DNA of 20,663 bases from a virus, in IMG/VR virus record IMGVR_UViG_3300027659_000269, positions 1 through 20,663 of that record; one strand, written 5' to 3'. Position numbers and translations under genes: made by a program. Below are positions 8,123 through 14,356 of this stretch, piece after piece (position 1 is the stretch's first letter; every line of letters begins with the position of its first letter). The notes under the pieces were generated by a model. It did no database searches. It had not been told where the DNA came from and saw only the letters and a program-made list of their open reading frames with translations.

Positions 8123-8130
8123 CCTCCTTA
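8123..8130 (-). promoter_or_regulatory. Strong ribosome binding site overlapping the capsid stop codon
   Basis: The minus strand reads taaggagg 8 nt before the ATG at 8114. The TAA is the stop codon of the capsid gene, so termination and re-initiation are directly linked. This supports the ATG at 8114 as the true start. Confidence 0.85.
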
Positions 8131-9243
8131 AACGTTAAAGGAATAAGCAATAGTGGCGAAGTCAGCGTTCAGAAGTTCAAAACCTGCGTACAGGCTCCAA
8201 ATCATCATGATAAAACGGCTGAAATCGTCATTATTGTTTAACAACACCTGAGCGTTGTTACCGCCAATACCCACGCCTACGGATTGAGGTCCGAAGAACA
8301 TACCGATAGCCGAATCATAGGTGGTAGAAGTACCAGCGATGGTGGCTGAAGCGGATTGTGTAGGCATGTTCGTGGACTCGAAGAAGCGGACTCCTTCAAA
8401 CACGAAACCAGTAGGCATGATGGGTTCGCCAGCCACAAAAGTAGCTTGGCCAAAACCTTGGCCCATGTAGATAGCAGCATTAGGCTGCATAGCTGACATG
8501 AGTGGGTTGATCTGACCGTTACCGGGGTAGCGAGCCACCTCACGGAAGTCAGAGTTCTGACGCAAGTGCATCAGGAAAGTAGGATCGCAAACGCAGCGAT
8601 AGAAACCATCCTGATAAGTAGGAACGTTACGCTTACGTAGGCTCTTAACCACACGAAGCAAATCGTCCTTAACGTCAAACTTAGCTTGCTCAGCATTGGT
8701 GTAGGTAAGGCCACCAACAGTAAGATTACCGGGGTAGTAATAACCGCCCTGGGTATCAGAAGACTGGCCTTTGGACACAGCTTTCAGGAGTTCATTGATG
8801 AACACCCGATCACGCCAACGACGATAGTCGTCGAGAAGTGTCAAAGAACCAATGGATTGGTGGAAACCGGTGAGATTACCTGTATCCAGCAGCAAACGCT
8901 GGGCAGTAATCAGAGTTTCGCGAGCAATCTTGAAAGTGCTGGCTTGAGTCGGATCGCTAGGGTCCGCAGGGCCGGTGTACTCCTTGAGAGTAACCAACAC
9001 TTTGTCCTTCACAATGTTACGACTTGAAGCCGTACCGATTGTCTGCTCAGCGGTGCGCTCCCTTGACTCCTTAGAGCCGGGATTGCCCCAGAATCTGTAA
9101 CGATCAAGCTGCACAGTCTGGCCTGGTTGCTTACTGAAGTCATGAACGACTACAGGTTCAGCAGCCATCTCTACAACATAGGCCGGGTGGGGCCTGTAGA
9201 GTTCAGCGCCGAGCAGCTTGGGAAAATCATTATCGACAAACAT
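8128..9243 (-). CDS. Probable major capsid protein
   Basis: A 371-aa protein, within the usual size of HK97-fold capsid proteins. The N-terminal region (about residues 25-110) is polar, with PGQTVQLDRYRFWG; the middle has a charged helix (LLDDYRRWRDRVFINELLKAV, here split as LLDDYRRWRD and VFINELLKAV). The region around 215-275 has CDPTFLMHLRQNSDF, then GFGQATFVAGEPI and FVFEGVRFFES. This DPxxxxxLRxxxxF then GxxxGxxF(V)FES progression is typical of phage capsid subunits. The gene lies downstream of portal and scaffold-like genes and has a GGAGAT ribosome binding site. Codon use is less AT-rich than surrounding genes, as expected for the most abundant protein. The fold assignment is by pattern and context; an alignment is needed for the exact family. 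Confidence 0.75.
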   Translation of the reverse strand: MFVDNDFPKLLGAELYRPHPAYVVEMAAEPVVVHDFSKQPGQTVQLDRYRFWGNPGSKESRERTAEQTIGTASSRNIVKDKVLVTLKEYTGPADPSDPTQASTFKIARETLITAQRLLLDTGNLTGFHQSIGSLTLLDDYRRWRDRVFINELLKAVSKGQSSDTQGGYYYPGNLTVGGLTYTNAEQAKFDVKDDLLRVVKSLRKRNVPTYQDGFYRCVCDPTFLMHLRQNSDFREVARYPGNGQINPLMSAMQPNAAIYMGQGFGQATFVAGEPIMPTGFVFEGVRFFESTNMPTQSASATIAGTSTTYDSAIGMFFGPQSVGVGIGGNNAQVLLNNNDDFSRFIMMIWSLYAGFELLNADFATIAYSFNV

Positions 9244-10583: not shown

Positions 10584-10613
10584 AAAAACCCCCCGTCTCC
10601 AGGGGGTCTTTTT
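10584..10613 (-). terminator. Rho-independent terminator after the scaffold-like gene
   Basis: A stem of accccc / gggggt (10588-10593 with 10102-style partner at 10602-10607) closes an 8-nt loop. On the minus strand it is followed by ttttta, 13-20 nt after the stop at 10626. The plus strand also ends in a T-tract (cttttt), so it could work both ways, but only minus-strand genes run into it. It separates portal/scaffold expression from the small-gene and capsid block. Confidence 0.88.
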
Positions 10614-10625
10614 GTAAACCTTAGA

Positions 10626-11540
10626 TCAGGCTGCGTCTAAGAACAGGAGCTTCTGACGGAAAGCATCAGGGCTCATTTGGCTCAAATAACGCCAAGCTTG
10701 GTCAGGATTGCGATCCATAGCGGTCTTAAATCCTTCCCACTGCCCTTCAACGTTGTTACGAGGAGCTGAACTAGCGTTAGCAGGAACAGCAGGCATGTCG
10801 TAGCTAGGGCGATAAGCGCGGGAATCACCATACTCAGGCTCATCCACGGGATACACTTCGGTGAAGAAGCGATTTGTGTAATCAGCCAGTTGATCAGGAT
10901 CAGTAAGAATATGCTCCATAGCGGCACCACGAACAGAAACCTGTTCTAAGCGCTCGTTTTGAGCAATCAGAGCATCTTCAAGAGTAACTGAGTACTGATT
11001 GAGAATGCCAGGAGCTTCAATACCGAAGTGATTAACTACTTGAGCGGTTACGTCGCTTAGTTCCACCTCTGGGGAGCTGACCGTAGAAGTCGGAGAGGAA
11101 GTTTGGGTCGTAAATCCGTTGTTGTAGGAGGTCGGCGCTGCCTGGGGTGCCTGATAAGCCCAGGGTTGGGCCTGTAAAGGCTGACTGTACTGTTGAGTAT
11201 CCTGTGCCGTTTGGTACTGCGGATACTGTGGTGCCTGGCTGGGGGACGGAGACATCCGTGATACCACCCGCTCCAGGCTGCCCATCGCGGCTTCCCAAGG
11301 GTTGCTCGGGGAGGACGCTGACGGAAACTGGTTGTACTGGTTGCTGGTAGAAGGGGCCGTACCCTGTGTTGCCGGCGACTGCTGTTGGTGCGTAGGCGCC
11401 GAATACCCCTGGGGGGTACTGGTTTGGGCTACCCATTGGGGGTAGGCCGTAGAGCCCTGGTCCGCTGTTGGCGCCGCCGAAGGGGCCGCTACCGCCGGGG
11501 AGACCGGGCTCGGGATCGAAGCTTGGATCTGCTGGCTCAT
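10626..11540 (-). CDS. Scaffold-like capsid assembly protein overlapping the portal gene
   Basis: A 304-aa protein. Residues 1-164 are low-complexity, rich in Pro, Ser, Gln, Ala, Thr and Tyr, and probably disordered. Residues about 165-235 look ordered and helical (LSDVTAQVVNHFGIEAPG, LEDALIAQNERLEQVS), and the C-terminus is helical (AWRYLSQMSPDAF, LLFLDAA). Position between portal and capsid and the disordered/helical mix fit a scaffolding protein; this is inference. The first 509 nt lie inside the portal gene in the +1 frame. In this frame a TAA stands six codons before the ATG at 11540, so that ATG is the earliest start; its ribosome binding site is weak. Internal ATGs (Met86, Met96) are possible later starts, still inside the overlap. 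A terminator follows. Confidence 0.55.
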   Translation of the reverse strand: MSQQIQASIPSPVSPAVAAPSAAPTADQGSTAYPQWVAQTSTPQGYSAPTHQQQSPATQGTAPSTSNQYNQFPSASSPSNPWEAAMGSLERVVSRMSPSPSQAPQYPQYQTAQDTQQYSQPLQAQPWAYQAPQAAPTSYNNGFTTQTSSPTSTVSSPEVELSDVTAQVVNHFGIEAPGILNQYSVTLEDALIAQNERLEQVSVRGAAMEHILTDPDQLADYTNRFFTEVYPVDEPEYGDSRAYRPSYDMPAVPANASSAPRNNVEGQWEGFKTAMDRNPDQAWRYLSQMSPDAFRQKLLFLDAA

Positions 11541-13269
11541 AGCTGCCCGAGTAGGTTAGTTCTTGTGCGAGGTGGTCAAACGTCCTGTACAACAGGGGCG
11601 TTAGATTCAAACGAGGATCAGCACCCAAAGGCTGATTAGGCGCAAGTGGATGTGGCGTTTGCAACATCTGTGATAATAATACTAAAAATTGTTGAAACGC
11701 GCTTTGAGTTTGTTGAATCATTCTGAAAGGAAATCCTTTCAACATTTCTGAACGCTCAGAATCCGTCTTATCGGGGAACAAATATTTCAACGCTTCGACG
11801 CTATCCACGCCGAGTTCTTGTAAGTTTCGTACAACAATTGACTTCTGATTTAAGTCGTACGCTGTGTCTTCATAGACATCACCTTGGAAACGATAGGTAA
11901 CTTCTCGATCCCCATCCGCAGGCAGGCCGTAAACTCCAGGCGGAACAGTGTTGGTTTCTAAAGCCGTCTTAATCGCAATCTCAACTTTTAATTTAAATTT
12001 CTTAACATCTACATCATATTTCTCAATCGATTCAGGCGTGGGCTTCTCCGGTATTTTTGGAGTTTTCATTCCTGTAACAGCTACAAAGCTCTCACGGAAA
12101 ATCTGCTCTTGATGATAAATAATCATTTCAAGCAACTTACAGAATCCGTAAGTTAAGAAACTTTTATTTTTACGAAGAGCCGTGGCTTGCGCTCGACCCA
12201 TCAATCCTTTAATTTCTGTCGCGGTAGCGCCAGCAGAAACAGAAATTTCATCCACGCCGCCAAGAGCTGTTCTAATTTCCTCGCGTAAAAGCAACGCATA
12301 CCTATTCATGTCCCCATTAACAGGGTCGGGGGTCATGTACCCCATACGATCTGAGGGCTCTACGTTTGCAATAATTCGAGGAACTCGCAAACCTCCCATC
12401 AAAGAGCTGCCGCCAAAAGGTTCGCTAACTCGGGTAGAGGGAGTATCCCTACCAGCAAAACCACTCTGACTACTAATAGTGGGACGGAACGTACGTTCAG
12501 CGTCGGAAGCTTCGATAAGGTCGCTACGTGGACGAGAGCTAATTAAGGTTGGGTTACCAAAGAATTCAATATTTTTTGCAATATTCTGAATAAGAGAATC
12601 GTGTAAAACGATTTGTTCCGAGAAGGGACCGAACTCTCCTTCTCCTTCTGTACCACTAGAGTTCGGTTTGTTTAAAACTTCGACAGCAGGAATAAACCCA
12701 AGCGTATTTTCTCTACTATTACTTGGCGTTAAAAGACCGGCTGGGTCTAGATCAAAGCTAAGCTCAGTATCCGTTTCTACTTCAGAAATTAGTTTGTCAG
12801 TAATGGATATGCGGACATACCTTTTATTTAATCCGGGTACATCTCCGGGCAGCCCTAAAGTAGAATTCCTTACTTTATAACTATAAATAATTATAACTTC
12901 TTGAATACTTCCATTTACGTCGTGATAAACGCGATATTGATGTTTGTCAAAAAAGTAAATTTGATACTTTAACTTAGGATCGGGTCGAAAATAAAATAAG
13001 CCGCAACCGTCTATTAAAAAATTCCGAATAATCGACGGAAAGCGAATGTCTAATCTATTTAGAGCTATTAGATCTTGTAGAAATTTGCCTCGACTGTTGT
13101 ACGTGTCTTGTTCGCAATAAAAAAACAATCCTTTTTTTATCATCAACAGCACCATCTGCTGTAGATGACCGAGCACGACCAAAGTAGCCGACTGCTTCGA
13201 TTGATCCTGGCTTCGGGCAGCCTCTAGGATTTCACTATATCTGCTTCTAATGCTGATTGGATCGGCCAT
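11032..13269 (-). CDS. Portal protein with long Gly/Pro-rich tail
   Basis: A 745-aa protein. Residues 1 to about 570 look like a phage portal: an N-terminal helical and beta part, IPAVEVLNKPNSSGTEGEG (about 195-213), a helix with SEQIVLHDSLIQNIAKN, and around 345-385 TATEIKGLMGRAQ followed by TYGFCKLLEMIIYHQEQ, typical of the portal stem and wing. Portals form the 12-subunit ring through which DNA enters and leaves the head. From residue 577 to 745 the protein is Gly/Pro/Ser-rich and probably disordered, ending in a basic tail (GTKRRNRSSS). This tail is encoded by the same DNA as the N-terminus of the scaffold-like protein, in another frame, and is markedly GC-rich. The tail is beyond the usual portal length, so it may be a late addition. 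Confidence 0.82.
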   Translation of the reverse strand: MADPISIRSRYSEILEAARSQDQSKQSATLVVLGHLQQMVLLMIKKGLFFYCEQDTYNSRGKFLQDLIALNRLDIRFPSIIRNFLIDGCGLFYFRPDPKLKYQIYFFDKHQYRVYHDVNGSIQEVIIIYSYKVRNSTLGLPGDVPGLNKRYVRISITDKLISEVETDTELSFDLDPAGLLTPSNSRENTLGFIPAVEVLNKPNSSGTEGEGEFGPFSEQIVLHDSLIQNIAKNIEFFGNPTLISSRPRSDLIEASDAERTFRPTISSQSGFAGRDTPSTRVSEPFGGSSLMGGLRVPRIIANVEPSDRMGYMTPDPVNGDMNRYALLLREEIRTALGGVDEISVSAGATATEIKGLMGRAQATALRKNKSFLTYGFCKLLEMIIYHQEQIFRESFVAVTGMKTPKIPEKPTPESIEKYDVDVKKFKLKVEIAIKTALETNTVPPGVYGLPADGDREVTYRFQGDVYEDTAYDLNQKSIVVRNLQELGVDSVEALKYLFPDKTDSERSEMLKGFPFRMIQQTQSAFQQFLVLLSQMLQTPHPLAPNQPLGADPRLNLTPLLYRTFDHLAQELTYSGSYEPADPSFDPEPGLPGGSGPFGGANSGPGLYGLPPMGSPNQYPPGVFGAYAPTAVAGNTGYGPFYQQPVQPVSVSVLPEQPLGSRDGQPGAGGITDVSVPQPGTTVSAVPNGTGYSTVQSAFTGPTLGLSGTPGSADLLQQRIYDPNFLSDFYGQLPRGGTKRRNRSSS

Positions 13270-13341: not shown

Positions 13342-13494
13342 TCAAGCGCCAGTTTTTTTCTGCTTTGCCTTTTTAGCTTTAGCTAAAGCGGCTTGACGAG
13401 CTTGTTTTTTTTCTTCGGCAGTCATTTCCTTAGGGTCTTTTTTATCTTTTTTCTGGAAGCGAGCTAAGAGCTCAGGAGGCATTTTGTCAGCCAT
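13342..13494 (-). CDS. Small lysine-rich protein, 50 aa
   Basis: Read directly from the minus strand: ATG at 13494, stop TGA at 13342-13344. It begins MADKMPPELLARFQKKDKK and continues as an Ala/Lys/Gln-rich, highly basic helix (QAALAKAKKAKQKK). The start overlaps the end of the GT17 gene by 8 nt (ATGGCTGA), the tight coupling used throughout this gene chain. The sequence MPPELLxRFxxK is typical of very small basic phage proteins. Function is unknown; the basic helix could bind nucleic acid or an acidic partner. Confidence 0.65.
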   Translation of the reverse strand: MADKMPPELLARFQKKDKKDPKEMTAEEKKQARQAALAKAKKAKQKKTGA

Positions 13495-14356
13495 GGGAAG
13501 GAAGCAAGAAACTGCGTACTCTTTCTAGTTTAAAGAGTTCTTGAGGCAACAGCTCATGTGGATAGGAAATAAGTATATGATCTTTGCGGCCCAAAGGGTC
13601 GACCCCGCCAGGTTCTGGCTTATACGTGTCTAAATAATCCAGCATTTCTTGACTATAAGCGGGAGCGTGAGCATTAGGTATGTCATCATAACAATGTGAA
13701 AAAGAGGTAAGTTTTTTCTTTAACCTCTCGGCATCCCCCATCCAAGAAAAGTGCCAACCGCAATCGCAGTCGCCTACTACTAGACCGTTGTCTTTGTTCC
13801 GTATACGAGAAAGCGTATCTTCAAGGTGGTTAAATAAAACCACGGTGCCGCAAGTCCAGTTTGTAGGAGGTTTACTTGTGTCTTGTTCGGGATCAACTAC
13901 ACGGAGATCTGCTCTTCCGTAAAGCATGGGCATTGACAATCGAACACAACGGTCTGGGTTTTCGTTGGCAATAGCAACAGCTTCTAGTAATCGAGAAGGT
14001 TTGGGTATTTCGTCAATATCACTAAAGAAAAATACCGAATCCGGTGGGGTCATACGCATACCCACTGCTAAAGCGTCTCTTTGAGCGTACTCTCGTATCC
14101 AAGGATTGGGGTAAACCTCCGCATCTGGAAGTTCTACATGTAAAACTTGAATTTTTTCTTCAGGTAAACCAAGTTCTCGAATATTTTCCAGACATGTAAA
14201 AGGTTTAGGATCCCCTTTAAAAGTTAAATTTCCTTCTGTAATAATAAAACCATCAACGACATCCTTGAGCATCTCCACACGGAGCTCAAGCAATTCCTTC
14301 TCGTTGAAATAAGTAAAGCAGTCAAACAGCATGAGAGGGTCTGAGACTGCCATCAT
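13487..14356 (-). CDS. Glycosyltransferase family 17 (GT17)
   Basis: A 289-aa protein, the normal size for the catalytic domain of GT17 (the family of beta-1,4-mannosyl-glycoprotein N-acetylglucosaminyltransferase). Visible signatures in order: FDCFTYFNEKELLELR (11-26), FIITEGNLTFKGDPKPF (37-53), the metal/nucleotide-binding SDIDEIP (112-118), and GWHFSWMGD (200-208). All key acidic residues appear present. It should transfer a sugar, probably GlcNAc-type, from a nucleotide sugar; acceptor unknown. It begins ATGATG at 14356, 8 nt after the 48-aa gene, and overlaps the next small gene. It sits inside the terminase-portal block, so it is presumably made late and could modify virion proteins or a host surface glycan. 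No signal peptide or membrane segment is seen. Confidence 0.88.
   Translation of the reverse strand: MMAVSDPLMLFDCFTYFNEKELLELRVEMLKDVVDGFIITEGNLTFKGDPKPFTCLENIRELGLPEEKIQVLHVELPDAEVYPNPWIREYAQRDALAVGMRMTPPDSVFFFSDIDEIPKPSRLLEAVAIANENPDRCVRLSMPMLYGRADLRVVDPEQDTSKPPTNWTCGTVVLFNHLEDTLSRIRNKDNGLVVGDCDCGWHFSWMGDAERLKKKLTSFSHCYDDIPNAHAPAYSQEMLDYLDTYKPEPGGVDPLGRKDHILISYPHELLPQELFKLERVRSFLLPSHG

Follow-up and report, generated by a model that had tools for sequence, protein, structure and literature searches.

Does one stretch of phage DNA encode parts of two different head proteins in two reading frames, or is one of the frames open only by accident? The question was raised by a viral DNA of 20,663 nucleotides (IMG/VR record IMGVR_UViG_3300027659_000269, whose whole length we call the window), in which the original prediction, made from the letters alone, had placed the tail of a portal protein and the N-terminus of a scaffold-like protein on the same 509 nt of one strand. 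To our knowledge, tailed phages rarely have long out-of-frame overlaps of essential structural genes; their gene overlaps usually comprise a few bases. On the comparative evidence set out below, we regard as likely an explanation that combines fixed dual coding, an acidic scaffold-like protein started internally, and procapsid assembly seeded by the portal.

Two reading frames on shared bases

Both open reading frames were present where they had been predicted, on the same strand and in the +1 relation, and their coordinates confirmed that portal residues 577-745 and scaffold-like residues 1-169 are encoded by common bases (Table 1). The longer product was matched by PHROG 20475 (virion structural protein, E=1.7e-158) and weakly by the portal family PHROG 64 (E=0.0007). 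When its AlphaFold2 model, built with 40 relatives, was compared with the PDB by Foldseek, the top matches were all portals with a probability of 1.00 (SaPI1, 80alpha, SU10, SPP1 and T7; for example SaPI1 8vd8, E=1.1e-9, and SPP1 7z4w), and the BFVD matches were portals likewise. The predicted structure and the PHROG matches thus support the earlier identification of this product as the portal protein. In the model, the ordered part ends with a helix at residues 557-576, and residues 577-745 are predicted to be disordered. The tail ends in a basic segment, the clade mean net charge of the last 25 residues being +4.1 to +6.5.

Table 1. Features of the shared region and its surroundings, in window coordinates
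Feature	Coordinates	Strand	Basis or remark
Predicted portal protein gene, 745 aa	11032..13269	-	ORF; PHROG 20475; AlphaFold2; Foldseek
Basic C-terminal end of portal tail (last 25 residues and stop)	11032..11109	-	charge count
Scaffold-like protein gene, 304 aa	10626..11540	-	ORF; AlphaFold2; alignment of 40 relatives
Dual-coding overlap	11032..11540	-	509 nt; scaffold-like frame is +1 of portal frame
Scaffold start ATG, window clade	11538..11540	-	15 nt past conserved in-frame stop
Conserved in-frame stop of scaffold frame, TAA here	11556..11558	-	open frame starts at 11555
Conserved NPWEAA(M/F) helix, scaffold-like residues 81-95	11256..11300	-	AlphaFold2; alignment
Terminator-like hairpin with T run, directly 3' of scaffold-like gene	10589..10606	-	consensus scan
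Major capsid protein gene, downstream of portal/scaffold pair	8128..9243	-	PHROG 1357

The AlphaFold2 model of the scaffold-like protein is all-helical, with low confidence outside the C-terminal helical bundle (residues 264-303). Residues 1-162 are predicted to be disordered save a helix at 81-95, and long helices occupy 163-226. The models of both proteins thus bear out the claim that the overlap encodes two disordered stretches. The further claim, that order in the scaffold-like protein begins where the portal stops, held for the long helices, which start at residue 163 while the portal stop falls at scaffold codon 169-170, but not for the short conserved helix, which lies inside the overlap. 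Shared bases are confined to predicted disordered segments, from the last ordered portal residue to near the first long scaffold helix, which may explain how dual coding is tolerated.

We call the second protein scaffold-like, rather than a scaffold; its gene position, predicted helical architecture and acidity fit such a role, in agreement with the original prediction. It is acidic, with a pI averaging about 4.2, and its gene stands between those of the portal and the major capsid protein (MCP; matched by PHROG 1357, major head protein, E=1.6e-22). It had no family match in PHROG, Pfam or the PDB, and hence none to a known scaffold; since scaffold families are very divergent, absent homology does not exclude scaffold function. 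The same lack of homology would suit a virion protein, either internal or at the portal vertex, as the second product of a genuine dual-coding region. We consider this the less likely reading, although one with an appreciable chance: the place of the gene between the portal and capsid genes, the mostly helical prediction with a C-terminal bundle and the low pI all argue against it, and no better scaffold candidate was seen in the window. The terminator-like hairpin past the scaffold-like gene suggests that portal and scaffold are carried on one transcript ending before the capsid gene; it is G+C-rich, with T runs on both strands.

The overlap has a G+C content of 62%; the portal body has 42%, and the remaining scaffold-like gene 49%. 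When the portal tail of the window was reshuffled synonymously, the +1 frame stayed open in just 3% of cases, and the same procedure left it open in 0.03-8% for most other representatives and in 50% for one (L168). The remaining same-strand frame contained a mean of 6.3 stops across the overlap in the 230 loci measured. The open +1 frame across the overlap is more than chance.

Occurrence of the overlap among relatives

Portal searches of viral and genome contigs yielded 295 loci in which the 3' end of the portal gene is complete, representing 214 distinct overlap sequences in four clades, between which the identity of portal bodies falls to about 44-50%. An open +1 frame of 452-644 nt was found in every one of them (295/295). 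A second search started from the non-overlapping portion of the scaffold-like protein and gave 71 loci whose upstream end was complete, and the overlap was again found in all (71/71); one locus of this set, L381, was flagged only for lying on a contig that starts inside the portal gene. In part, the loci of the portal-anchored and scaffold-anchored sets lie on the same contigs. Two findings that would have spoken against dual coding were thus absent: neither frame is interrupted by a stop in any of the 295 loci, and the scaffold start lies inside the portal gene in every relative. Neither the portal search nor the scaffold C-terminal search returned a relative lacking the overlap among the best 80 loci of each viral scan, a depth at which remote relatives may be missed.

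Among annotated phages, the only homolog found was Synechococcus phage S-EIV1 (KJ410740), which is also the sole cultured member. Its 767-aa portal likewise overlaps a 325-aa ORF (L082 9745-10722) in the +1 relation, by 554 nt, so that scaffold-like residues 1-184 and portal residues after 584 are encoded by common bases, and the order of portal, scaffold-like and MCP genes is identical. The S-EIV1 portal body is about 46% identical to that of the window and the MCP 69% identical; judging from its homologous portal, MCP and gene order, the window phage belongs to an S-EIV1-like lineage. The group holding S-EIV1 accounts for 3.3% of the marine cyanophage signal (PMC5332604). Relatives L163-L173 come from bins labelled Euryarchaeota, Bacteroidetes, Rhodobacteraceae and others; they are probably mis-binned phage contigs, whose titles are no guide to hosts.

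Constraint on both frames and on the scaffold start

Fourfold-degenerate divergence in the portal frame fell from body to overlap in all four clades (0.641 to 0.270, 0.566 to 0.119, 0.625 to 0.274 and 0.646 to 0.098), a 2- to 6-fold decrease. The chief decrease begins at the scaffold start and lasts to the portal stop, and no portal body block of equal length approaches the low synonymous divergence of the overlap. Rank tests of this drop gave p values of 3e-44 and 3e-46; since related sequences are not independent, we place the weight on the effect size and the agreement among clades rather than on these values. The scaffold frame behaved in the same way, with a fourfold divergence of 0.264 inside as against 0.538 beyond the overlap in one comparison and 0.269 against 0.474 in another. 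Base composition does not explain the synonymous drop, because it lowers the expected difference of random pairs only from about 0.71 to about 0.65. Synonymous suppression, proposed at the outset as a mark of dual coding, was thus seen in both frames over the overlap, which indicates that both proteins are under selection.

For an expectation with the portal frame as the only coding frame, the portal proteins were kept unchanged while their synonymous codons were drawn anew at the rate of the body; the reverse test was made for the scaffold frame. The scaffold-frame difference expected in three clades was 0.60, 0.48 and 0.65, and that observed 0.38, 0.20 and 0.49, the amino-acid change being smaller than expected in 150 of 150 pairs in each clade. 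Conversely, the portal-frame difference was expected to be 0.52, 0.45 and 0.63 and was observed to be 0.34, 0.27 and 0.53, falling below expectation in 150, 150 and 148 of the 150 pairs. Taken at sequence level, the overlap is thus a case of real dual coding, with both frames under purifying selection.

These results bear directly on the possibility that only the scaffold frame is real, so that the functional portal would end near residue 576 and its tail would be tolerated read-through. The end of the portal fold at that residue is consistent with such a reading, as is the composition of the tail, which is in part that expected if scaffold codons were read in the portal frame. We nevertheless find it very unlikely, given that synonymous change in the scaffold frame is suppressed within the overlap, that portal-frame change stays below expectation, that the basic C-terminus of the portal is conserved, and that in every relative the portal frame stays open as far as the shared terminus.

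Ahead of the scaffold start, at window positions 11541-11770 (minus strand; portal codons about 500 to 576-580), synonymous divergence is already reduced. The reduction is greatest in the S-EIV1 clade, with values of 0.22-0.43, and, for the window clade, around QFLVLLSQML, about codons -51 to -40 before the ATG. The stretch is possibly a promoter or a translational control element; a consensus scan gave no sigma-70-like promoter that would account for it. Such constraint outside the overlap would also be in keeping with the synonymous suppression as a whole reflecting a signal in RNA or DNA, for instance a packaging site or a translational control structure, with no second protein. That explanation is highly improbable, as such a signal would explain neither why stops are absent from the +1 frame alone in 295 loci nor why +1-frame residues are conserved between clades whose portals are about 45% identical. 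The window gave no match in Rfam and tRNA scans.

In all 295 loci, a stop just upstream of the start closes the scaffold frame. This stop is made by portal E-(L/M/V)-(T/S)-Y codons, namely by the Leu, Met or Val codon together with the next one. In the window clade the stop-forming Leu codon is xTA or xTG in 57 of 57 sequences, compared with 64% in the body, a restriction which suggests that the upstream stop itself is kept. The stop is retained in the 295 loci even though the stop-forming portal Leu codon varies synonymously. Start sites are clade-specific and all fall within one 15-nt hotspot. In the window clade, the ATG has no Shine-Dalgarno sequence, and fourfold divergence at portal codons 0-4 there is 0.000. 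The S-EIV1 clade uses an ATG 3 nt past the stop, with the Shine-Dalgarno sequence AAAAGGAG conserved at all starts among those listed; S-EIV1 itself thus starts at another codon than the window, and with a strong Shine-Dalgarno sequence. The x clade has its ATG 3 nt past the stop, and the marine clade a GTG 6 nt past it, preceded by AAGGAG. The Shine-Dalgarno bases coincide with portal Lys-Glu codons, which in the S-EIV1 clade show almost no synonymous variation. An internal in-frame start at the ATG of scaffold residue 86 was rejected, since the S-EIV1 clade has Phe at this position and constraint is present from the upstream ATG onwards.

Against this background we weighed whether the portal frame alone is real, the scaffold-like gene starting downstream and the open +1 frame being a by-product of the Gly/Pro/Ser-rich tail. 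GenBank annotates S-EIV1 in just this way, with AHV82225.1 starting past the portal stop, and in single genomes the open frame is only modestly unlikely, as the reshuffling values for the window and L168 show. We give this reading practically no chance: synonymous suppression lies exactly over the overlap, the scaffold frame changes far less than the portal alone would dictate, start sites are conserved and carry Shine-Dalgarno sequences, and the NPW motif is conserved in the scaffold frame. In the alignment of 40 relatives, P81 and A85 of NPWEAA are invariant, and N80 and W82 are conserved in at least 90%. AHV82225.1, called hypothetical, is a truncated entry holding just the part of the S-EIV1 scaffold-like protein that lies past the portal stop.

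On the two origins first proposed, a portal lengthened across the scaffold gene or a scaffold given a new N-terminus within the portal gene, codon usage points in opposite directions in different clades, and no overlap-free relative turned up among the best 80 loci of each viral scan. Codon-usage dating slightly favours an older scaffold frame in the window clade, and favours an older portal frame in the S-EIV1 loci and the remaining loci. A simulation of by-product composition pointed to a portal tail shaped by the scaffold, an effect too weak to use.

A proposed model of assembly and its precedents

We propose that the scaffold-like protein, acidic and mostly helical, would be initiated in the +1 frame at an internal start on the portal-gene mRNA, while portal translation would run on through the bases encoding the scaffold-like N-terminus. 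The C-terminal arm of the portal, present in 12 copies and ending in a basic tip, would, judging from portal topology, emerge on the interior side of the capsid. On the scaffold side, the overlap would encode a disordered N-terminal arm with one short conserved NPWEAA helix. Internal initiation could supply scaffold in excess over the 12 portal copies from one transcript, and contact between the basic portal tail and the acidic scaffold is plausible on grounds of charge, so that procapsid assembly might begin at the portal. That portal arms bind the scaffold arm, that assembly starts there and that internal initiation sets the stoichiometry is a tentative proposal, which we think less likely than not.

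Precedents exist for the separate elements of this arrangement. The Nu3 scaffold of lambda is produced by internal initiation within the protease gene C, nested in the same frame, and is likewise a scaffold started within another head gene. Nu3 and C, however, share one sequence in frame, whereas here two unrelated sequences are encoded and the host gene is that of the portal. The lambda-type Rz/Rz1 spanins, partner proteins of many tailed phages, are encoded by a same-strand, out-of-frame overlap, but these are lysis genes with a shorter overlap, and here a pair of head genes is involved. In a survey of dsDNA viruses, same-strand +1 is the commonest type of overlap once 1- and 4-nt overlaps are excluded, with a median length of 14 nt and an IQR of 8-26 (PMC8903798). 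The overlaps of 452-644 nt described here are some 30 times longer than typical. No description of a portal/scaffold overlap was found in the literature searched, a body to which most subscription papers do not belong.

The overlap is old, being found in every examined member of an abundant aquatic lineage, and was missed in its reference annotation. With a cultured representative, it offers a natural system for studying the encounter of portal and scaffold, and the long-term sharing of one DNA sequence by two disordered segments. The N-terminus of the scaffold-like protein is corrected here, and automated annotation may truncate the corresponding genes of related genomes likewise.

Two further observations concern neighbouring genes. 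In the window, a glycosyltransferase family 17 gene (13487-14356, minus strand; Pfam E=1.9e-17) lies between the terminase and portal genes, an unusual place for such a gene. In S-EIV1, the MCP ORF (L082:11317-12468, plus strand; KJ410740.1 60859-62010) is unannotated in GenBank: most of it lies under the minus-strand CDS AHV82227.1, and AHV82228.1 corresponds to its C-terminal part only.
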